DNA of 54,343 bases. It comes from Gemmatimonadetes bacterium bin94 (GTDB lineage Bacteria; Gemmatimonadota; Gemmatimonadetes; Longimicrobiales; Gaopeijiaceae). Where the stretch lies: assembly GCA_002238865.1 (NCBI GenBank), contig MPNE01000028.1, positions 1-54,343 on the forward strand, read 5' to 3'. Positions 13,307 through 23,292 of the stretch are shown piece by piece. The notes beneath the pieces are model-generated. The model did no database searches and was not told where the DNA came from. It saw only the letters and a list, made by a program, of their open reading frames with translations. A program made the translations under genes and the position numbers. Within the stretch, counting starts at the first letter, position 1. Every line of letters starts with the position of its first letter.

Positions 13307-13564
13307 TCAGATGTCGAGGTCGCGGAACAGCTCCTCGGCGCTGTCGAAACGCTGACCCTTACCGTCGTCCAGTTCCTTCATGGCCCTTAGGGTGGTCGGG
13401 TTTGGTACCTGGACGGTGAACGGCAGTCGCTTCTCTTCCGCAACACGCAGCAGCACCAGGCGGATCACGTCGGACACGGACAAACCCATGGCCTTAAGCG
13501 CCTCGGTGGCGCGTGCTTTGGTGTTGCTGTCGATTCTCGCGCGCACAACGGTGTCGGTGCTCAT
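13307..13564 (-). CDS. dinJ: DinJ/RelB-family antitoxin
   Basis: The 85-residue product (STDTVVRARIDSNTKARATEAL, then MGLSVSDVIRLVLLRVAEEKRLPF) is a ribbon-helix-helix DinJ/RelB antitoxin, and the tail RFDSAEELFRDLDI is the toxin-binding part. AAGGAGGAGA precedes the ATG at a good distance. The open frame continues far upstream, but the ribbon-helix-helix start and the ribosome site fix the start at 13564. It precedes yafQ. Confidence 0.92.
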   Translation of the reverse strand: MSTDTVVRARIDSNTKARATEALKAMGLSVSDVIRLVLLRVAEEKRLPFTVQVPNPTTLRAMKELDDGKGQRFDSAEELFRDLDI

Positions 13565-13580
13565 CCTGGATCTCCTCCTT

Positions 13581-13603
13581 GTTGTAGCGTTATTGTAGCT
13601 ACA
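13581..13603. promoter_or_regulatory. Probable DinJ operator
   Basis: The palindrome TGTAGCTACA (13594-13603) is accompanied by a further half-site TGTAGC at 13583-13588. Both are just upstream of dinJ and match the expected position of an autoregulatory site for a ribbon-helix-helix antitoxin. The assignment rests on position and symmetry only. Confidence 0.5.
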
Positions 13604-13666
13604 CATGGTAACTGCGGCAAGCTGCGCGACCAGTGGTTGCCGCCCCCCCAAAGCCGGAGACAAGGA

Positions 13667-14707
13667 ATGAAAGCCTACGCCATCGTGACGACCCTCCTCA
13701 CCCTGCTGGGCCTGGTGGGTCTGTTCTCCCTCCGGGTCCTCGGTCTCTACAGCCACCAGGCGTTGGCGGTCGTACTGCTGCTCGGCTTCGTCTGGGCGGT
13801 CGCGAACCGAAGCTGGCTGGCGTGGAAAGGGCGACTGGATACGGGGTTGCTGCGCGGACTCGGGAGCCGCGACAAACGGCCCCAGCTCCTGGGAGCGGCG
13901 GGACGCGCGAGCTTCTGGGCCATGACCGCCGCCGCGTGCCTGGCGGTTTTTCCGCGCTCTGCGGAGATGACGCCTCTGATCGCCGGCCTGGTCGTCGTCT
14001 CCGTGCTGCGTGTCGCGGCTTCGTTCCTCGTCTCGCGCCGGACCAACCCCGGGCCCGCCCTCGTCATGGCGGCGGGCGCATTGGTCCTGGCATTCGATCT
14101 CGGTCGCGCCGTCCTGGGCGGGCGCTTCGGGAAGGGCGCGGCCGCCGTCGTCCAGATTGCTCCACCCTTCGACGGGGAGTGGCTGGTGCTGCAAGGCGGT
14201 CCAAGTCCTCTTCAGAGTCACCATCTCGTGGCCTACAACCAGCAGTTTGCCCTCGATCTCGTTCGGCTGGGCGACGGCGCGATCTTCACCGACGAGACGG
14301 GCAACGCGGGCGTTCACAGCTGGGAGCAACCGCTGCAGTCGCCCGCGGACGGTACGGTGGTCGTCGCGCGGGACGGGATGGAGGATTCAGAGGGCGTCAA
14401 CCTCGTGTCCGATCGTGCGGACGCGGCAGGGAACGTCATCGTCATTGAGCTCGACAGCGGCCATTTCGTCGTCCTTGCGCACCTCCGGCACGGAACGCTC
14501 CAGGTCAGCGAGGGCGACAGGGTTCGGAAGGGAGATCCGCTGGCCCTGGTCGGCAACTCCGGGAACACGACCATGTCACACCTTCACCTCCAGGTGCAGA
14601 CTCACAGCGACCTCTGGGATCCCGACAACCGCTCCTTGCCCTTCGCATTCGAGCCTGAGGGCCGCGTCTTGGCTCGGAATGATCGGGTTGGGGGCCCGGC
14701 GCGGTAG
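13667..14707 (+). CDS. Membrane-anchored M23-family peptidase
   Basis: The N-terminal 140 residues contain several hydrophobic segments (YAIVTTLLTLLGLVGLFSL, ALAVVLLLGFVWAVA, a third near FWAMTAAACLAVF, and further ones to about residue 145). The C-terminal half is an M23 (LytM-like) domain: NQQFALDLV with the metal-ligand aspartate, SPADGTVVVARDG, LAHLRHGTLQVSEGDRVRKGDPLALVGNSGNT and SHLHLQVQ with the HxH motif. M23 enzymes cut peptidoglycan cross-bridges outside the cytoplasm, and the topology would display the domain on the outer face. I chose the ATG at 13667 behind GGAGACAAGG. It diverges from the dinJ-yafQ operon. Confidence 0.85.
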   Translation: MKAYAIVTTLLTLLGLVGLFSLRVLGLYSHQALAVVLLLGFVWAVANRSWLAWKGRLDTGLLRGLGSRDKRPQLLGAAGRASFWAMTAAACLAVFPRSAEMTPLIAGLVVVSVLRVAASFLVSRRTNPGPALVMAAGALVLAFDLGRAVLGGRFGKGAAAVVQIAPPFDGEWLVLQGGPSPLQSHHLVAYNQQFALDLVRLGDGAIFTDETGNAGVHSWEQPLQSPADGTVVVARDGMEDSEGVNLVSDRADAAGNVIVIELDSGHFVVLAHLRHGTLQVSEGDRVRKGDPLALVGNSGNTTMSHLHLQVQTHSDLWDPDNRSLPFAFEPEGRVLARNDRVGGPAR

Positions 14708-14838: not shown

Positions 14839-16086
14839 ATGCCGGCACCAATGGCCGCATCCGCCGCAGTCGCCGTCTCATTCGGTCGCCCGCGAACCCG
14901 AATCCACCTCATCCTCGCCCTCGTGGCACCGCTCGCCGCCTGCTCCCCCGACCCCTCCACCCCCGCCCACACCGCACCCCACGTCGCCGACAGCGCAGGC
15001 GTGCGGCTAGTCACCTACGACCACACCCCAACCACCGCCGCCCCCTTCCAACTCGCCCCCGAGCCCCGCTACCGCCACGGCGCCAACCCCGGTGACTACG
15101 CCTTCCAGGAGGTCAGCATCGGCCGGCTCCTGCCAGACGGCAACGCCGTCGTCTACGACCCATGGAACGCCGAACTGGTCGTGCTCGGCCCCGACGGCAC
15201 GACACACGAAGCGCTCGCCACGGAGGGAGAGGGACCGGGAGAAGTCAGCTTCGTCGCCGCCATACTTCCGCTTGGGCGGGACAGCATCCTGATCGCCGAC
15301 CCCGGCCTCGCCCGCGCGACCCTCTTCGTCGGCGATTCGGTGGCCGGCATCTCGGCCCTCCCGCGCGGCGCCCGCCTCGAAGTGGAGGGAATCGGTGCAT
15401 CCGGCGAGTTGCTGCTGGCCACTGTCGTGGGCGCGTGGGGCTTCGAAGGGGAGTGGCTCCCCGGGCATATGGCCCGGTTCGACGCGGAGTCCGGCGCCCT
15501 CGACACGGTCGCGGCGTTCGACTTCTGGCCGCGTACCCCGCCCGGGATGCAACGGAACCTGATCGGAGCCGTCGGCGAGGTGACGGTCGCCACCGGGCAC
15601 TTCATCCAGACCCGGTCCGACAAGGCGGAAGTCACCTGGCGCCTGCCCGACGGCACCGTAACGCAGATCGTCCGATGGCAAGGCGAGCCGGCTCTTCTGA
15701 CCGAGGAATGGCTGGCACCCGTCGAGGCCGAGCACCGGATGCAGGTCCGCATGCACAGCCCCGACCTTTCCGAAGCCCGGGTCGCGGAAATCACCCGGAG
15801 TGACATGGGCGCTTATCGCGCCATCATCGGCCGGCCGATGCCGCTCTTCGGTTCCCCGTTCGCCGACGCCGAGGGAAGGGTATGGCTACCCTCCTACAAG
15901 CCGGGCGGCGAGCGGCACAGCATGGCGCCCTACACGGTGATCGCGCCCGACGGAGAGTGGCTTGGCACGGTAGAGGCTGCGCGCGGGTTCCATATTCTCG
16001 ATGCAGGCGCCGGGCTCGTCCTGGGCGTGGAGCGGGACGAAATGGACGTGGAGAGCGTGGTGGTGTTCGAGTTGATTCTCGGCTAG
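14839..16086 (+). CDS. Six-bladed beta-propeller lipoprotein, type B
   Basis: The signal peptide ends at a lipobox (LALVAPLAAC) and the mature protein begins with a proline-rich linker, then DSAGVRLVTYDHTPTTAAPFQL, YRHGANPGDYAFQEVSIGRL and TEGEGPGEV. It is a close paralogue of the protein at 7476-8690: the opening blades and the C-terminus (WLGTVEAARGFHILD, ERDEMDVESVVVFEL) match in order and spacing. Unlike the two other type B genes it has no type A partner upstream. The start at 14839 follows AGGAGAACCC. A copy of the dispersed palindrome lies in its promoter region. Confidence 0.85.
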   Translation: MPAPMAASAAVAVSFGRPRTRIHLILALVAPLAACSPDPSTPAHTAPHVADSAGVRLVTYDHTPTTAAPFQLAPEPRYRHGANPGDYAFQEVSIGRLLPDGNAVVYDPWNAELVVLGPDGTTHEALATEGEGPGEVSFVAAILPLGRDSILIADPGLARATLFVGDSVAGISALPRGARLEVEGIGASGELLLATVVGAWGFEGEWLPGHMARFDAESGALDTVAAFDFWPRTPPGMQRNLIGAVGEVTVATGHFIQTRSDKAEVTWRLPDGTVTQIVRWQGEPALLTEEWLAPVEAEHRMQVRMHSPDLSEARVAEITRSDMGAYRAIIGRPMPLFGSPFADAEGRVWLPSYKPGGERHSMAPYTVIAPDGEWLGTVEAARGFHILDAGAGLVLGVERDEMDVESVVVFELILG

Positions 16087-16306
16087 TTGCGCAAGAGCTC
16101 TGTCGCGAGCGCGATTACCCATCTGGGCCGGACTCCACAGTACCATTCCAGGCCACGTGGTGCTGCAGTACCGGCGCTAGTGGCTCCCAATGGATCCGCT
16201 ACGCTCGCTCTTCTGGGTAATCGCGCGGACCAAGCGCTGGATCACTATTTCTCGAGCCCGTTCCGGCAGTGTCTCGACTGCCTTCCACAGCTGGCCCGTG
16301 CAGGAA

Positions 16307-17521
16307 CTACTCCGATATCGGTACCAGTCTGCGCCCCTGGACCTGTCCCGAGTACCGAGCGTCGACATGCAGCCCCCAGACATGCGTGTGGGTAGCGTCG
16401 CCAAGCCGGAATTCTTCCGGCAACAACACATGGCGTGGCATGGCAGTTGGGTCCGTGCGATCGATAACGTACCAGATGGCCAGCGAGTCGTGCGACTCAC
16501 CGCTTCGAAGCCATACCTCATTCGATGCCGTTGTCACGACCGAGGTTACGGGCGGCAGATGATCAGGAACGTAGAGGGCCGCTTCGACCATTTCGTAGAC
16601 AGTCGAAGTCGCCAACGTGTCTGCACTCGACCGTAGCGGTTCTGTTATGCTACGCATCTTCGCTGCGATAGCCGCCTCGACACGTTGCCGTTCCAGTGGC
16701 ACCAAAGGCACCCGCACTCGCGCTTCAAGGACAGTGTCGTTGCCTGGTGCGATTTCGACCACGGCAACTTCGCCCGTGCCTTCATTCCTCTTGACGATTC
16801 CCAACGCGCCCGCCTGTTGGTTGAAGTAGATCAAGTGGTGATCGGCGAAGGGCTGGCCCGAGAACGTCTGGCTCCCACGCAACGCGACGCCAAAGTCACG
16901 TCCATACGAATCGTGAATGGCGAGCGTATCAGCCACCCATCCCTCTTCGGCCAAGCGGAGATGGGCCACGGCGACCTGCCACCCCGGGTGTCCCGCTTGC
17001 CAGTCGAATACACGGTGCGGGAAGGGAAACCGCTCACGGGCCAGGAGGGTCCCGTCACCGAGAATCGCGGTCCCTCCTCCGAGCCACTCGTCGGACGGGC
17101 CTGGTACCGCCCGCTCGAGACGACCTTCGAGCGAGAATCGCCCCGGCCCGCCGTCAAATCGGACCCAGAGCCCGGCCGAGTCCAACTGGACGCCTCGCGG
17201 GTTACCCAAGGGTGCGACCTCGTCGCGTGACCCCAACTCGAACACGGGCCCGCCCAAGCGATCAGGATCCCAAACCGTGACCCGTCGAGACTGAAGGACA
17301 GCGATCGTGTTGCCGTTCGCGGCGGACCTCACTCCTACCAGCAACGGCAACGCATCGTCCGTCCCCGGTTCTCCCCCGATGACCATGTCGGGTTCCGTCG
17401 ACCAGTCCTGCGGCGAAGTACGGATACCTCCTTCCGCCGACTTCGCAAGACTCATGGTGCAGGGTAGGGCGGCGAGCCAGAGCAACACAATGCGTCCCGA
17501 GACAAGTCCCTTACCCGTCAT
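16307..17521 (-). CDS. Divergent beta-propeller secreted protein
   Basis: The 404-residue product has an export signal (IVLLWLAALPCTMSLAKSA) and propeller-like repeats (SAANGNTIAVLQSRRVTVWDP, GNPRGVQLDSAGLWVRFDG), but the GEGPGEF signature is lost, with only GSRDEVAPLGNPRG at the equivalent place. Its C-terminal region (ALYVPDHLPPVTSVVTTASNEVWLR, HVWGLHVDARY) matches that of the preceding gene product (ALYVPEHYPPVQDPAVLSNGEIWMR, HVWGTRYDSFDVRYV), so the two are paralogues. Its ATG overlaps the stop of that gene (ATGA). It is the last gene of the three-gene unit under promoter A. Confidence 0.75.
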   Translation of the reverse strand: MTGKGLVSGRIVLLWLAALPCTMSLAKSAEGGIRTSPQDWSTEPDMVIGGEPGTDDALPLLVGVRSAANGNTIAVLQSRRVTVWDPDRLGGPVFELGSRDEVAPLGNPRGVQLDSAGLWVRFDGGPGRFSLEGRLERAVPGPSDEWLGGGTAILGDGTLLARERFPFPHRVFDWQAGHPGWQVAVAHLRLAEEGWVADTLAIHDSYGRDFGVALRGSQTFSGQPFADHHLIYFNQQAGALGIVKRNEGTGEVAVVEIAPGNDTVLEARVRVPLVPLERQRVEAAIAAKMRSITEPLRSSADTLATSTVYEMVEAALYVPDHLPPVTSVVTTASNEVWLRSGESHDSLAIWYVIDRTDPTAMPRHVLLPEEFRLGDATHTHVWGLHVDARYSGQVQGRRLVPISE

Positions 17522-18750
17522 TCGGAATCTCCTGGGTCGCGAATCAACAGTCGGCCAACCACATAGCGGACGTCAAAGGAGTCGTATCGGGTGCCCCACA
17601 CATGGGAATCGGTAGCATCATGAGGCAGAAAAGTGGTCGGCAACAGGATTCGCCGCACGGGAGAGTTGTCCGGTGCACCGACCCGCACCGCATACCATAC
17701 GTGCAGCGAATCAGCGCCCGCGTCTTCGTAAGTCCTCATCCAGATCTCGCCGTTGGACAGCACAGCCGGGTCTTGGACAGGCGGATAGTGTTCCGGCACG
17801 TACAGAGCCTCTCGGACCGCGCTCCTCGCGTCCGCCAGCAACAGATTCGATCTCCTGTTCGCGATGGTCGTTGCGGTGTTCTCGACGATTTCCTCCACCT
17901 GTCTCGCCGGCAGAGCAATGGGTGGGAAGCGCAAGCTCCGGGACCAAACTGTATCGCCGTCCGCTGACAACTCCGTCAGATCGACCACCCCTGGGCCTAG
18001 ACCTCTCCGTCGGGTGACTATGACCGTTTTCGACCACGGACTATAGCTCGCCACGTCCGTGTCCCGGTACGGTTGAAGCGAGAACGACGTCAAGCCAGGA
18101 TCCTCCTCATCCTTGCCGGTCGCAAGGATCTCGTTTCGAGTATCGAGCACCGTCAAGGTATCGACGGTCCAATCGCCGTCTCGTTCTCTTAGTCGGACGA
18201 CGGGCAACTCCACGACCGGATCGTCGCCCCACCATCCGGACTGGTAATCCGGTGAAACCCTCGGATAGGCCAGGAAGCTGCCGTCGTCAAGTAGCGATGC
18301 GGGGCGAAACCGAAATCCGCGATGGCTCACCGAAAGAGGTACGGACACCGTGCGGACGTGTAGTCCATCGCGCGAGAACACGACGAAGCGATCCCGGTCC
18401 CGCACCCGGAATCCTTCAGGTGTGACCTGGACTTCATCTGGACCTCGAAACTCTCCCGGTCCTTGTCCTTCACCTCCGACCGAATACAGAGGCGATCCGT
18501 CGGGTGTCCAGACGGTCACTCGGAAGTCGCTGGGGTCGACCACGTAGATCCGGGTCCCGTCATCCCCCAAACTGACATCGGAAACCCTGGTGAACGCGGC
18601 ATCTGCTGCGTGCAAGCTGCCGATCTCATACTTCGGCACCGTGGTCCAGGTATCGGCAGCGTCAGGGGATCCCGGTGGTGAATCGGCACCACAGCCGAAC
18701 ACTGCGACTAACGCCGACGCTATGACCCACCACCGGATCCTGGATGTCAC
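17518..18750 (-). CDS. Six-bladed beta-propeller lipoprotein in the ECF-controlled unit
   Basis: From the GTG at 18750 the protein starts MTSRIRWWVIASALVAVFGC, a proper lipoprotein signal; the longer frame upstream overlaps the Cys-rich gene and has no signal at its start. Blades include FTRVSDVSLGDDGTRIYVVDP and the signature GGEGQGPGEFRGPDEV. It begins four bases after the stop of the Cys-rich secreted protein gene and overlaps the next propeller gene, so the three genes form one operon. The linkage suggests that the propeller works with the Cys-rich protein, for instance in its recognition or export, but no biochemical role is known. Confidence 0.8.
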   Translation of the reverse strand: MTSRIRWWVIASALVAVFGCGADSPPGSPDAADTWTTVPKYEIGSLHAADAAFTRVSDVSLGDDGTRIYVVDPSDFRVTVWTPDGSPLYSVGGEGQGPGEFRGPDEVQVTPEGFRVRDRDRFVVFSRDGLHVRTVSVPLSVSHRGFRFRPASLLDDGSFLAYPRVSPDYQSGWWGDDPVVELPVVRLRERDGDWTVDTLTVLDTRNEILATGKDEEDPGLTSFSLQPYRDTDVASYSPWSKTVIVTRRRGLGPGVVDLTELSADGDTVWSRSLRFPPIALPARQVEEIVENTATTIANRRSNLLLADARSAVREALYVPEHYPPVQDPAVLSNGEIWMRTYEDAGADSLHVWYAVRVGAPDNSPVRRILLPTTFLPHDATDSHVWGTRYDSFDVRYVVGRLLIRDPGDSE

Positions 18751-18754
18751 TTCT

Positions 18755-19198
18755 TCAGCCCCGACTAGCCAGCCCGGACACCTCAGTGGGGGGTCCTTGA
18801 GCCACGACAACCCCGACCAAAGAGCCATCGCACTTCTTTCGCACGAAAAGCCGGTTCCCTTGTGTTCCCACGAAGTAAGGCGTGTCGGCGGGCAGCTTTC
18901 CACTACTTGCAACTAACGCGAGGGCTTCCTGAGTCGCGGCTTCTTCCTCCGCCGGCGCGAGCGCAGATCTTCCGCAGAGCTGGGAATCCGCAGCCGGCAG
19001 ACAGATGCCCTGACCTATGACGGGACCTGCGCCAACCCAGCACGTGGAGAAACCGAATTTACCCGCGTCCTGATGGGCGCACAGGTCAGTGTCGAGGTCG
19101 CACGTGTAGCATTGCGCCATGGCGGGGGTTGCGCCAAGAGCGATTCCCACGAAGGGAAGTGCGATCATCGCCATTGCACCAGCGAACTTCTTGATCAT
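18755..19198 (-). CDS. Cys-rich secreted protein of unknown function
   Basis: The ATG at 19198 follows GGAG and gives a textbook signal peptide (MIKKFAGAMAMIALPFVGIALGATPAMA). The mature protein, about 120 residues, opens with CYTCDLDTDLC and has six cysteines in its first 47 residues, then a charged, alanine- and glutamate-rich stretch and a C-terminal domain with a single cysteine (VRKKCDGSLVG). The cysteine cluster suggests disulfides or a metal site after export. I do not recognise the family. It is the first gene of the unit running to 16307 and lies about 75 bases downstream of promoter A. Confidence 0.75.
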   Translation of the reverse strand: MIKKFAGAMAMIALPFVGIALGATPAMAQCYTCDLDTDLCAHQDAGKFGFSTCWVGAGPVIGQGICLPAADSQLCGRSALAPAEEEAATQEALALVASSGKLPADTPYFVGTQGNRLFVRKKCDGSLVGVVVAQGPPTEVSGLASRG

Positions 19199-19273
19199 GT
19201 GTCTGTCTCCATACTTTTTGGGGCCGAGGGCCCCCTCAGGTTGACAAGTGGTGACTTTCGCCACTCCATATAC

Positions 19274-19302
19274 TTGACAGTTCTCACAGCCGAATTGTGC
19301 AA
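19274..19302 (-). promoter_or_regulatory. Predicted ECF promoter A (TTGCAC-N17-TGTCAA)
   Basis: Read on the minus strand, TTGCAC at 19302-19297 and TGTCAA at 19279-19274 are separated by 17 bases. Bases inside the spacer also match promoters B and C, notably GAAC directly before TGTCAA and TTC after TTGCACA. It points to the Cys-rich protein gene, whose start is about 75 bases downstream. The -10/-35 assignment is inferred from the conservation among three sites. Confidence 0.7.
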
Positions 19303-19333
19303 TCCGTTGCGGCCGGCTCCAGATCGCAGCATA

Positions 19334-19945
19334 TCAGGTCGTCCCCCGGCTGAGCGCTTGAGCAACCTCGGGAAGGCCGTTGCCATGGCCATCGGTCACG
19401 ACCCGGCCCTGCTGATCCAACGCGATTACCCAAGGTGTCCGTTTAGTGAGGTCGTTGCCACCAACCTGCCCTGCATGACCCTCCACTGACACGACCTCAA
19501 TGGGCCAATGGTGCTCGTTCGCAAAAGCAATCGCGTCGGCGAGGGGTCCCGGCGAAATCGCCAGAATGCGATATCTGTCAGACTCTCTGCCAGCAAGCCA
19601 GGACGACCAGGCTGGCGCAACCCGACGCGTGTGGGCGCAGTCGGGATCGAAGACGAGCAGCAGGGTGGCCCGGCCCGCCCCCAGGTTGGCTTCGGTCCCG
19701 TCGACATACCTTGCGGTCATGGACGACAGGTCGTAGCCGACCGAAATCAGTGGAACTTGCGAGTCGGCATCGAGCTTCGGGGCGCCGAGGACCACTGCCT
19801 GGGCAATCGCCGATACGGCCAACACCGCTACGACTGCGCCGTTCCGCCACGCTCGCCCACACACGAACCCTCGGTCCACTGTGCGCGTCACGAGGGAATT
19901 CCGATCTCGTTCCAGGTCATGTTGATTCACATCCGTTGAATTCAT
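19334..19945 (-). CDS. Membrane-anchored thioredoxin-like (TlpA/redoxin-type) protein
   Basis: A single N-terminal membrane segment (about residues 36-54) precedes an extracytoplasmic domain with ANLGAGRATLLLVFDPDCAHTRRVAPAW, the beta-strand and active-site helix of the thioredoxin fold, and later KRTPWVIALDQQGRV with the conserved cis-proline region. The active-site motif is CAHT, not CxxC, so it keeps only the first cysteine (about residue 103), which would suit a peroxiredoxin-like, thiol-isomerase or non-resolving thiol reaction. A TTG at 19975 is an alternative start that overlaps the stop of the small gene upstream. The pairing with Cys-rich exported proteins suggests a role in handling their thiols. 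Confidence 0.75.
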   Translation of the reverse strand: MNSTDVNQHDLERDRNSLVTRTVDRGFVCGRAWRNGAVVAVLAVSAIAQAVVLGAPKLDADSQVPLISVGYDLSSMTARYVDGTEANLGAGRATLLLVFDPDCAHTRRVAPAWSSWLAGRESDRYRILAISPGPLADAIAFANEHHWPIEVVSVEGHAGQVGGNDLTKRTPWVIALDQQGRVVTDGHGNGLPEVAQALSRGTT

Positions 19946-19971
19946 GAGTGAGTGATGCACGCCCCCACACC

Positions 19972-20178
19972 TCAAGGGCGACCGCGAGGCGTTCCTCGGA
20001 TCAGTTGCCGGACCTCGTCCCTGAGTGCGCGAAGCTCGTCGGGCGGGTCATCGTGACCATCGGCGATGAGCAGATCCAGTATCTCGCTGAAGCGATACAC
20101 CAGTACTTCGACGCGCCGCAGCCTTTGCGTCAGGGTCAGTCGCACTTCCGGAATGTCGCCGGCGGCTCTGTCGGCCAT
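19972..20178 (-). CDS. Small hypothetical protein (68 aa)
   Basis: The product is charged and mostly helical (RLTLTQRLRRVEVLVYRFSEILDLLIADGHDDPPDELRALRDEV, shown in part), without a signal peptide or membrane segment. I do not recognise the family. It is the first gene downstream of promoter B, with about 65 bases between them, and is directly followed by the redoxin gene, which supports it as a real gene. Confidence 0.55.
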   Translation of the reverse strand: MADRAAGDIPEVRLTLTQRLRRVEVLVYRFSEILDLLIADGHDDPPDELRALRDEVRQLIRGTPRGRP

Positions 20179-20242
20179 GACGTGTCAACTCCAAATGATC
20201 CATGTCGAACCCCGCATGTCGAGTACTGAGGTCCGTACTTAA

Positions 20243-20271
20243 TTGACAGTTCCCGGGACGGAAATGTGCAA
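20243..20271 (-). promoter_or_regulatory. Predicted ECF promoter B (TTGCAC-N17-TGTCAA)
   Basis: On the minus strand TTGCAC (20271-20266) and TGTCAA (20248-20243) are spaced by 17 bases, followed by TTAAGTA. The flanks GCAACGCA before TTGCAC and GGGAAC before TGTCAA match promoter A. It points to the small protein and redoxin unit. Confidence 0.7.
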
Positions 20272-20375
20272 TGCGTTGCCCCCCGGCCCCGGGTCGGAGC
20301 GGGGCTCGTGACGGACGTCTGGACGGTTTCGCACCGCTTTCGGGAGTTCGGTCAGCGTCTGCTCAGGGACGCAGA

Positions 20376-20404
20376 TTGCACATTTCTCCTCTGAGAACTG
20401 TCAA
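20376..20404 (+). promoter_or_regulatory. Predicted ECF promoter C (TTGCAC-N17-TGTCAA)
   Basis: On the plus strand TTGCAC (20376-20381) and TGTCAA (20399-20404) are 17 bases apart, followed by TTAAC. It shares ATTTC and GAGAAC spacer bases with the other two. It drives the unit of Cys-rich peptide, membrane protein, sigma factor and anti-sigma factor, so the sigma factor would control its own synthesis. Promoters B and C are divergent, about 105 bases apart. Confidence 0.7.
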
Positions 20405-20457
20405 TTAACAGGCCAGTCAGTTTCCCCTCCACGACACGGGGACCGTTCAGTCCCTCA

Positions 20458-20676
20458 ATGGGAGAACGAAGAAAGTTGCGAAAGACCAAGGTGGTTCTTA
20501 TCCTGCTCAACCTCGTCCTGGCAGTGGCTCTGGCAACGCGGGCGAGCGCAGCACGTTCGGCCCGGGGCTGGGCTTCCTGCTGCCGGGGCGATGGCCCTGA
20601 AGCGTACTGCTGTCACAAATGCTGCTGGTGGCCGCCATCTTGCGACACCAACAGCGACTGCGGTGACGCAGAATAG
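20458..20676 (+). CDS. Cys-rich secreted peptide precursor
   Basis: The 72-residue precursor has a basic n-region (GERRKLRKTK), a hydrophobic core (VVLILLNLVLAVALATRASA) with an AxA site, and a mature peptide of about 40 residues with eight cysteines, three of them pairs of adjacent cysteines (SCCRGDG, YCCHKCCWWPP), and two close to the acidic C-terminus. Such spacing suggests four disulfides or a thiolate metal site. The ATG lacks a Shine-Dalgarno sequence; an in-frame TTG at 20476 behind GGGAG is an alternative that leaves the signal peptide intact. A short hairpin (AGAGC-N6-GCTCT, 20675-20690) follows and may tune expression of the genes downstream. I know of no named family with this pattern. 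Confidence 0.7.
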   Translation: MGERRKLRKTKVVLILLNLVLAVALATRASAARSARGWASCCRGDGPEAYCCHKCCWWPPSCDTNSDCGDAE

Positions 20677-20712
20677 AGCCCCCAAGCTCTTCGGAGGAAC
20701 TCGACGGGAGCA

Positions 20713-21546
20713 ATGCCGAAAACTCTAACCGGATCCCGGGGTTGGATGGGTGCCGTCGGGAGGGCAATGCTCCCATGGTATCTCCTCTTCGTCGTCGGTA
20801 TGCTCCTGTTGGATTCCCGATGGCCTCCGCATGATGGGCCCGGCTTCTTCACGCGGTTGTTTTGGCGTGTCACCGAAGACACCGCGCTCGTGCTTCCGTT
20901 CCTTCTTTTCGGGGCTGGCGTGGCGTTGGGCAGCATGCAGTGGCACACCCGTCGCCTCATGCACGTCGCTCTCGGCGTCGGTATCTCGGTCAGTGCGGTT
21001 GCCTACGGTCTGGACGCTTGGGCCGAGCCGGTAGTCCACGATCAGGTACTGGCCAGCCTGGAACCCGAAGTCGTGGATTTGCGTCGGTTCGGGCCGCGCA
21101 CCCCCGTCGGAGTCCTTGAGAATCTTCGCTTCGTGGAGGCAAATCCTCCCGCGGAATACACCTTGAATGTCAGCGCTCCGGACCGATTCCCCCCGAACGT
21201 GCTCCGTTGGGAGCTGCATGGCCCCCCAGCCATGGCCGTGTTCGGCCTCATCAACGTGCTTCTGGGTGTGCTGGCCGCAAGACTGACCGTCGATCTCAAC
21301 CGTCGGGCACAGCGGAACTCTCGACTGGCAATCGGCGTGATCGGTGGGATCGCGTTCTTCGGATGCCTCGTCGTTGCATCTCCCGTCGAACCGTTCCTGC
21401 GAGATGGAACCATGCGATCGGGGACTCTCGGCGCCTGGGGCCCGCTCGTCTTCCCGTTGGGGCAGGCGTTCGTCCTCATGCACCTGGTTCGCAGGCGGGG
21501 ACACCGCCGACCCGAGCCACAACCACCCACGTCCGTCCGGAGATGA
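20713..21546 (+). CDS. Polytopic membrane protein in the ECF operon
   Basis: The 277-residue product has about three membrane segments before residue 100 (PWYLLFVVGMLLL, ALVLPFLLFGAGVALG, MHVALGVGISVSAVAYG), an exported domain of about 70 residues, and three more segments at the C-terminus (AVFGLINVLLGVLAA, IGVIGGIAFFGCLVV, PLVFPLGQAFVLMHL). The 3+domain+3 topology recalls LptF/LptG-type transporters, but I see no sequence match strong enough to claim it. GGGAGCA lies just before the ATG. Sitting between the Cys-rich peptide and the sigma factor, it may export, sense or protect against that peptide; this is inference. Confidence 0.7.
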   Translation: MPKTLTGSRGWMGAVGRAMLPWYLLFVVGMLLLDSRWPPHDGPGFFTRLFWRVTEDTALVLPFLLFGAGVALGSMQWHTRRLMHVALGVGISVSAVAYGLDAWAEPVVHDQVLASLEPEVVDLRRFGPRTPVGVLENLRFVEANPPAEYTLNVSAPDRFPPNVLRWELHGPPAMAVFGLINVLLGVLAARLTVDLNRRAQRNSRLAIGVIGGIAFFGCLVVASPVEPFLRDGTMRSGTLGAWGPLVFPLGQAFVLMHLVRRRGHRRPEPQPPTSVRR

Positions 21547-21585
21547 CCGATGTGAGTCCGGCAATGGAAGTGTCGGCAGATTCCG

Positions 21586-22134
21586 ATGGGTGAATCGACC
21601 CGGCCCAACTTCGACAGTTTCCGGAAACTGCTGGAGCGTTTCGGGCCGCTCATAGAGAGTGTTGCCGCACAGTATGCCAGTGATGGCGATGACCTGGACG
21701 ATCTATACCAGGAGATCTGCATCCACGTCTGGAAGCGACTTCACCAGTTTGAAGGCCGCGGCGCGCTGGGCGGTTGGATTCAAAGGCTGGCGCACCGCTA
21801 CGCCAGAAACTGGTACAACGCACGCACCGGCCACGAGTCGCTACTGGAACGATACGCTGCGGAGACGCTTCCGATCGACCTTGCTGAATCCCTGACCGAC
21901 AACCCATCGAAACTCCTGGACTACAAGGAGTTCCTGGGAGGTTTGGGGCGCGCCTTCGCCAGCCTTCCGGAACGACAATCGGACGTGATGATCTTGATCC
22001 ACCTGGAGGAGCGTAGTATTGCGGAGGTGGCAGAGATCCTGAACTCGAGGGAAGTAACGATACGTTCCCATCATCGGCACGCCAGACAGAATCTTCGGAG
22101 GATGTTGGAAGATGGAAGAGATGACTTGCCCTGA
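21586..22134 (+). CDS. ECF-family RNA polymerase sigma factor
   Basis: The 182-residue protein has sigma region 2 (DLDDLYQEICIHVWKRL, then WIQRLAHRYARNWYN, about residues 35-80) and region 4 (FASLPERQSDVMILIHLEERSIAEVAEILNSREVTIRSHHRHAR, about 125-170, shown in part) and no region 1 or 3, as in extracytoplasmic-function factors. The anti-sigma gene overlaps its end by 23 bases. The start has a weak ribosome site; a 16-codon frame from 21543 links the previous stop to this start and may couple translation. The same promoter pattern precedes its own operon and two neighbouring ones, so these are its likely targets. Confidence 0.92.
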   Translation: MGESTRPNFDSFRKLLERFGPLIESVAAQYASDGDDLDDLYQEICIHVWKRLHQFEGRGALGGWIQRLAHRYARNWYNARTGHESLLERYAAETLPIDLAESLTDNPSKLLDYKEFLGGLGRAFASLPERQSDVMILIHLEERSIAEVAEILNSREVTIRSHHRHARQNLRRMLEDGRDDLP

Positions 22135-22564
22135 CCCGACGGCCCTTGACCGCACAGGCACACCGGATGCCGACCCGGCGCTGGTGGAGCACCTGAAGAC
22201 ATGCCCCTCGTGCTGGCTTGACTGGCAGATTCAGCATGGCCTGCGCCACGTCATGGACCCCCAGCTGGAGGTCCGGACCGACCTGAACGAACGGGTGATT
22301 GCCAGGATCGCCCTGAGAGCAGCACGGTTGGAGAAGACCTTGCGGTGGCGGGATCTTGCGATCTGCGCGGCGCTGGTCACGGCGGCGACGTGCGTCTTTG
22401 TTCTGGCAGCGGTCGATAGCACAACCCCGGTAATGTCGGTCTCAAAGGTGCTCTACACGATCGGGGCAGGCATCGCGGCCGCGCTGTACGTGAGACGAGA
22501 GGACAGAAACGAGCGCGCGTCGGCAGTAGGTGCGGCCGGAGCGTCTCTCGGGTCGCCCGCCTGA
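22112..22564 (+). CDS. Zinc-finger (ZAS-type) membrane anti-sigma factor
   Basis: Near the N-terminus EHLKTCPSC fits the HxxxCxxC zinc motif of ZAS anti-sigma domains (H27, C31, C34), with C6 as a possible further ligand. Two membrane segments follow (about residues 88-108 and 113-130) with a short loop between, and a short cytoplasmic tail ends the protein. The gene overlaps the sigma gene, the usual order for a cognate pair. Cys-based zinc ligation would allow release of the sigma factor by thiol oxidation, which fits the Cys-rich and redoxin targets, but envelope signals are equally possible. Confidence 0.85.
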   Translation: MEEMTCPDPTALDRTGTPDADPALVEHLKTCPSCWLDWQIQHGLRHVMDPQLEVRTDLNERVIARIALRAARLEKTLRWRDLAICAALVTAATCVFVLAAVDSTTPVMSVSKVLYTIGAGIAAALYVRREDRNERASAVGAAGASLGSPA

Positions 22565-22600
22565 GTCTCGCGAACGAGTACCGCTTCCTGTACAACAGCT

Positions 22601-22711
22601 ACGACCGGCGAGGGCGTGTGGCTCGGTGCCACTGACGACTACCAGGTCGAGTTGATCGACTGGACGGGCGAGACGATTCGCCAGGTGCGGGGGTTGGTGG
22701 AGGGGAGGTAG
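22601..22711 (+). pseudogene. Fragment of a six-bladed propeller gene
   Basis: The 36 codons before the stop at 22709-22711 read TGEGVWLGATDDYQVELIDWTGETIRQV..., which matches TGTGVWYGSADDYELEHVDFTGRVTRI in the protein at 24963-26354. No start codon, signal or other blades remain. A further short stretch in another frame just upstream may belong to it. It is an eroded paralogue left downstream of the anti-sigma gene. The 275 bases after it, up to the HU gene, are AT-richer around 22735-22780 with two TGTCAC direct repeats and likely hold the HU promoter. Confidence 0.65.
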
Positions 22712-22986
22712 GGGGCTTCGGCGACTCTGTCACCATATTGTCACGCTATATCATCGAAATATCGCGTATTCACTATATGTCGGTTGCGGCGCGTGCCCTG
22801 TTGGCCGATGATAGTGGGGTTGGTCGTGCTGGTGTGCCCAGGTCTGCAACTTCGATGCGTTTTCGGAAATCGTGGCAGATGATCGATCCGTTGTGGCTGA
22901 CACCGTCAAGCTGATGAATAACGAGGGGTGCGCACGTCAACGCCCCGATGCCAGGCCGAGTCGACACCACGGCCGAGGAGAAAAGG

Positions 22987-23292
22987 GTGACCAAGGCCGA
23001 CATCGTTGAGCGGGTCGTCAAAGCGATTGGCCCGGAAGTCGCCCAGGACGATTGCGGGCTGGTGATCGACGCCTTTCTCGCTGCTGTGCGCGACGCGCTC
23101 GCGAGGGGTGAGAGCATTCAACTCCGGAGATTCGGCACCTTTGAGGTGCGACGCCGCAGGGCGCGACCGGGCCGCAACCCCCGCACCGGAGAACCGGTTG
23201 CGATTCCCGCCCGAGATGTGCCGGTCTTCCGGCCCTCCAAACACTTTCGCAGACGCGTTGAGCGCGAGCACGGATCGTCCGTCACCGCTTAA
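22987..23292 (+). CDS. HU/IHF-family DNA-binding protein
   Basis: From the GTG at 22987 the protein reads MTKADIVERVVKAIG, the normal start of this family, followed by the dimer core and the DNA-binding arm (RRRRARPGRNPRTGEPVAIPARDVPVFRPSKHFRRRV). GAGGAG lies seven bases upstream. The length of 101 residues is normal. It bends or compacts DNA and may act at promoters or recombination sites. The open frame extends 13 codons further upstream, but that part does not match the family. Confidence 0.9.
   Translation: MTKADIVERVVKAIGPEVAQDDCGLVIDAFLAAVRDALARGESIQLRRFGTFEVRRRRARPGRNPRTGEPVAIPARDVPVFRPSKHFRRRVEREHGSSVTA

Follow-up and report, generated by a model that had tools for sequence, protein, structure and literature searches.

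In autoregulated ECF pairs of the E. coli RpoE-RseA type, a sigma factor having only the sigma2 and sigma4 regions is co-encoded with its anti-sigma factor, and a bipartite promoter with a GT(C) -10 stands before their own operon (PMC8103513). The early hallmark of ECF promoters, AAC at -35 and CGT at -10, is no longer defining (PMC8103513), and the ECF41 promoter, TGTCACA-N16-CGTC, illustrates that ECF groups can have a -35 of their own (PMC3426412). The locus considered here, part of a 54,343-nucleotide stretch of DNA analysed as a whole and called the window below, resembles the RpoE-RseA type in its two sigma regions, its co-encoded anti-sigma factor and the GT(C) -10 of a bipartite promoter placed before its own operon. 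It is unlike it in that the -35, TTGCAC, is without AAC and the -10 is TGTC (CGTC in some relatives), so that the hallmark is absent, in that the operon opens with an 8-cysteine peptide and an LptF/LptG-like protein, and in the presence of several paralogous cassettes per genome, the -10 elements of which have diverged. With ECF41 it has in common a group-specific -35 without AAC, a -10 of the TGTT/CGTC type and a local regulon (PMC3426412). However, the window sigma factor (182 aa) ends 12 residues after region 4 and has no C-terminal extension, the -35 is a different one, the anti-sigma factor is a separate protein and the target genes are others. Regulation of this kind is textbook knowledge; the cassette and its sigma/promoter family, judged by literature titles and abstracts, are apparently undescribed. 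Those titles and abstracts held no description of TTGCAC-type ECF promoters, of an ECF/LptF operon or of a matching Gemmatimonadota system.

The window has exactly three copies of TTGCAC-N17-TGTCAA (shuffled-window mean 0.01, with at least three in 0 of 100 shuffles). One copy, P1 (20376..20404, plus strand), is the candidate ECF promoter of the sigma operon; the second, P2 (20243..20271, minus strand), is divergent from it and would serve a unit for a 68-aa protein and a redoxin; the third, P3 (19274..19302, minus strand), would serve a unit for an exported Cys-rich protein and propellers. All three are conserved in the related loci L035 and L037. The original prediction had the coordinates, the strands and the 17-base spacer right, as it did the TTC and GAAC common to the spacers of all three sites, and its statement that each site is aimed at a different unit agrees with the finding of a gene start downstream of each, the likely start codons lying ~71 nt (P1), ~64 nt (P2) and ~75 nt (P3) beyond the last base of the -10. 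It went too far in taking both the spacing and the -10 to be unlike those of housekeeping promoters: the hexamers do differ, but a 17-base spacer is the sigma-70 optimum. A sigma-70 reading of the sites was rejected, as not one of them came up in a scan for the sigma-70 consensus. Elsewhere the 4.42 Mb home genome has one further exact copy, on contig C57, in which the spacer features are absent, and which has a position weight matrix score of 13 versus 41-47 for the window sites. The matrix was built from exact matches and, since it was trained on them, these scores are partly circular; the tests of spacing, direction, tree and enrichment described below are not. No known RNA element was detected at gathering threshold in positions 16000-23000.

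What do the three units encode? The sigma-operon unit (20476-22564, plus strand) has four closely spaced genes, here called CYS, MEM, sigma and ASIG. A sigma/anti-sigma unit had been predicted and both of its genes are there, with the correction that genes for a Cys-rich peptide and a membrane protein precede the sigma gene. CYS (20476..20676, with a likely TTG start and an alternative ATG at 20458) specifies a 66-aa exported or membrane-anchored peptide whose core in the window copy, CC-x8-CC-x2-CC-...-C-...-C, follows a hydrophobic start, and 8 of 8 cysteines are invariant in an alignment of 13 members. Its sole PDB profile match, to the quinohemoprotein amine dehydrogenase small subunit, has an E of 0.77, which is not evidence, and that identity was rejected. 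The sigma gene (21586..22134, plus strand) specifies a protein with Sigma70_r2 at residues 15-79 and r4_2 at 120-170 of its 182; it scores 93.8 bits against TIGR02937, above the cut-off, its best PDB match is E. coli sigma-E, and no specific NCBIfam sigma subfamily was above its cut-off among the 25 matches listed. Having regions 2 and 4 only, it is by its predicted domains a plain ECF (sigma-70 group IV) factor. Its gene overlaps that of the co-encoded ASIG (22112..22564, plus strand), a putative zinc-type anti-sigma factor of 150 aa with a transmembrane segment by hydropathy, weak zf-HC2 and RsrA matches, and the Hx3Cx2C motif of ZAS (ASDI) proteins in the form EHLKTCPSC, which is kept in most relatives and lost in L054/L056. 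According to PMC7406223, ~79% of the ECFs of Gemmatimonadetes go with class I anti-sigma domains, so the sigma/anti-sigma pairing in the window is ordinary.

The P2 unit (20178-19334, minus strand) starts with the small 68-aa protein (19972..20178), conserved in L035 and L036, and continues with RED (19334..19945), a membrane-anchored thioredoxin/AhpC-like protein that has a single Cys (CxH[ST]) where CxxC is usual; an AhpC-TSA match in its relative in L043 (E 5e-4) is below the Pfam cut-off. The P3 unit (19198-16307, minus strand) has as its first gene that for the exported Cys-rich protein (18755..19198), whose signal sequence ends ...ATPAMAQC. This is followed by the gene for a propeller lipoprotein (17518..18750) with the lipobox VFGC and a weak match to the 6-bladed propeller DUF5128, and that for a second propeller-family protein (16307..17521), both belonging to a family, F0, with 83 members across 30 loci. 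The sigma factor, MEM, CYS, RED, the propellers and the exported Cys-rich protein gave no match to PADLOC defence families.

MEM (20713..21546, plus strand) deserves separate consideration. Its AF2 model (pLDDT 83, pTM 0.81) aligned in VIA-align with LptF/LptG chains (6mjp_G and relatives) at Z 14.5-18.4, the best of these over 237 residues, the next unrelated row having a Z of 8.2. Foldseek gave a probability of 1.00 against LptF/LptG, yet no E-value <0.001, and Pfam LptF_LptG was weakly matched in 9 of 18 MEM members. As modelled, MEM shares the six-helix membrane fold of LptF/LptG, the permeases of the LptB2FG lipopolysaccharide exporter. Unlike them, it has 277 aa and no beta-jellyroll, the model being without strands and its helices 3 and 4 being joined by a short loop, and no LptB-type ATPase gene was seen in the cassette.

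Within the genus the window sigma factor has three orthologues (69-77%) and many paralogues (~36-46%), with 12 sigma-like matches in the home genome; a scan of genome contigs with the sigma protein alone as query gave no match. The related loci belong to Gemmatimonadota/Longimicrobiales MAGs (named records), and this genus of uncultured bacteria is apparently sponge-associated, several bin names looking sponge-derived. The locus set analysed had forty regions of up to 20 kb each, 683 kb in total, and its conserved ORFs were derived from all-against-all BLAST and then clustered, since a codon-bias gene caller missed island genes. A recurrent set emerged: MEM in 41 of 41 loci, ASIG and propellers in 30 each, RED in 25 and CYS in 24. 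Within the genus MEM occurs in 20 of 23 genomes, and within the order in 24 of 154. The home genome has three paralogous cassettes, in the window, on C55 and on C63, with the -35 TTGCAC common to all.

Throughout the 683 kb, TTGCAC-N17-TGTC occurs 44 times and TTGCAC-N17-TGTT 19 times (63 together), versus 0-7 per variant at other spacings from 5 to 30 bases. The extended consensus is roughly A-TTGCAC-GTTT...-G(A/G)GAAC-TGT(C/T), and other -10 forms in relatives are CGTC and, after 18 bases, GGTC. Strong sites face a same-strand conserved ORF in 54 of 61 cases, mostly RED, CYS, MEM or a propeller, and an opposite-strand one in two. The original prediction had proposed looking for the motif at related sigma loci, and of the 41 cassette loci 32 have, by our own tally, a recognisable TTGCAC-type promoter close to the sigma operon, with no clear site there in the other nine, among them L050, which is cut by a contig end, L040 and L066/L067/L073. 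L035 and L037 carry the three window sites in matching positions, where they form conserved blocks within diverged intergenic DNA. Two of the three close orthologues (G001, G019) keep all three sites, and the third, L036 (G016), has a replaced upstream segment and, for that reason, no motif. In L036 (G016:C9) the CYS upstream region and the promoter pair were lost by rearrangement or misassembly, and a fragment of the 68-aa gene is ~7 kb away.

Is the motif as frequent where the cassette is missing? With the reversed pattern as control, TTGCAC-N17-TGTY in whole genomes gave 206 sites versus 88 in the 20 cassette-bearing genomes of the genus, 5 versus 9 in the three genus members without the cassette, and 320 versus 389 in 127 genomes of other genera (Mann-Whitney, cassette genomes versus other genera, p 2.6e-10), a contrast against which the weak MEM matches of a few other-genus genomes work. 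The home genome has 22 versus one. Genome-wide, the excess is confined to genomes with the cassette. Outside the genus, the single full cassette (L169) carries three TTGCAC-N17-CGTC sites. A second, more distant ECF sigma family of the phylum, represented by nine loci (L160-L168), gave no site under a loose pattern. It has a RED-like gene near in 8 of 9 loci and a CYS-like gene for a variant Cys peptide of the CCKxxxxxRxYCCxxCCxFxWNC type, often with propellers and without MEM or the TTGCAC motif.

The -10 classes were also placed on a sigma tree, a quick one of 40 rows with two long branches (L058, L059). They require 7 changes versus 17.6 with shuffled labels, and 0 of 200 shuffles were as low, i.e., the -10 variant (TGTCA, TGTT, GGTC, TGTC[T/C]) tracks the tree, with the GGTC class forming one supported clade. 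In region 4.2 the recognition helix (TxRSxxRHAxxxLR) hardly changes, and neither does the -35 TTGCAC, while region 2 varies.

Given the strict spacing, the gene-facing direction, the cassette-limited excess and a -10 that tracks the sigma tree, we infer that the three sites are autoregulated ECF promoters, read by the window sigma factor itself, and hold this to be very probable, as throughout the genus the same sites reappear beside related sigma genes and vary in step with them. The original prediction, in which the sites are promoters for the sigma factor's own unit and for units of exported proteins, thus has the support of spacing, direction, sigma-clade tracking and enrichment limited to the cassette. 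Could the repeated sequence rather be an operator, bound by a repressor or activator? Close divergent pairs of sites are also typical of operators and the TTG...CAA ends form a partial dyad, but this dyad is not kept, the relatives ending in TGTTAG, TGTCTG or GGTCTG, and the sites, with their ECF-like architecture, are fixed in direction towards genes and go with the sigma gene, not with another regulator; an operator is accordingly quite improbable.

Less remote, though still unlikely, is that these ECF promoters are served mainly by another sigma factor, e.g., the C55 or C63 paralogue, and that the window sigma factor is not autoregulated. The -35 that all three paralogous cassettes have in common and the 12 sigma-like matches in the genome would accord with that, and against it are the restriction of the strong TGTCA -10 to the window locus within the genome and the way in which this -10 moves with the window sigma clade in other genomes. 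That chance or a dispersed repeat produced the sites is scarcely credible, for while the loose TTGCAC-N17-TGTY is at background level in most genomes, there are three exact copies versus 0.01 expected, and the flanks are not in common, conservation being confined to the promoter blocks.

How would autoregulated ECF promoters of this sort be worked? At rest, the membrane-bound zinc-type ASIG would hold the sigma factor, until an envelope or redox signal releases it. Region 4 of the freed sigma factor would then recognise TTGCAC and its region 2 TGTCAA. A matching promoter is kept upstream of the sigma operon. The sigma factor would raise its own operon, its own inhibitor included, in a presumptive positive feedback, and would also switch on the divergent redoxin unit and the unit for the Cys-rich protein and propellers. 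The output would be exported, disulfide-rich and membrane proteins, which might serve in secretion, in signalling or in envelope or disulfide-related defence.

Of the strong TGTC sites in the home genome, three lie in the window and the only other, a TGTCTA, at the C63 cassette, and the regulon of the window sigma factor therefore seems purely local, consisting of three units. Strong TGTT sites are more numerous, being at the C55 cassette and also elsewhere, before propeller genes and an AraC-like gene, and the C55 sigma factor seems to have a wider reach. Within that genome the strong TGTCA form is at the window only, the sister cassettes having TGTT and TGTCT, and from this difference the three sigma factors are probably insulated at the -10. 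Distant TTGCAC-N17-TGTY sites at L150, L151 and L142 precede an AraC-like gene with a Cys-rich exported gene further downstream; the sites before AraC-like genes suggest wider regulons for sister sigma factors. Some TTGCAC sites, at L147, L054 and L056, are followed by a further sigma-like gene, a hint of sigma cascades.

Paralogous ECF sigma factors with one -35 and differing -10 elements, in which sigma and promoter change together, are a natural series, suited to experiments on how sigma factors can grow apart without crosstalk and a source of orthogonal promoter pairs. In bacteria so far not grown, an uncharacterised 8-Cys peptide family and a reduced LptF/LptG-like protein are both linked to one regulon. 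A speculative extension, which we regard as possible and somewhat short of an even chance, is that these bacteria have in the cassette a system for secretion or signalling that is undescribed and has been duplicated repeatedly. Each copy would combine the exported 8-cysteine peptide, the LptF/LptG-like permease without jellyroll, the redoxin with its single Cys and the propeller lipoproteins under an ECF sigma factor of its own with a private -10, and several copies could then coexist in one cell without crosstalk.

Some further observations concern single loci. An identical site core, TTGCACGTTTCCGGGTTTGGAACTGTT, is in L140, L141, L153 and L154, i.e., in several genomes, one of them from a different genus (G067), and no gene is evident shortly downstream of it. 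In the window, a RelB antitoxin match (E 3.8e-20) is to the C-terminal part of a long ORF (13307-14329, minus strand), and the true gene is probably shorter than that ORF. In the C55 sister cassette (L059 6893-7708, G000) a subtilisin-like protease (Peptidase_S8, E 1.2e-12) lies between RED and a TGTTCT site.
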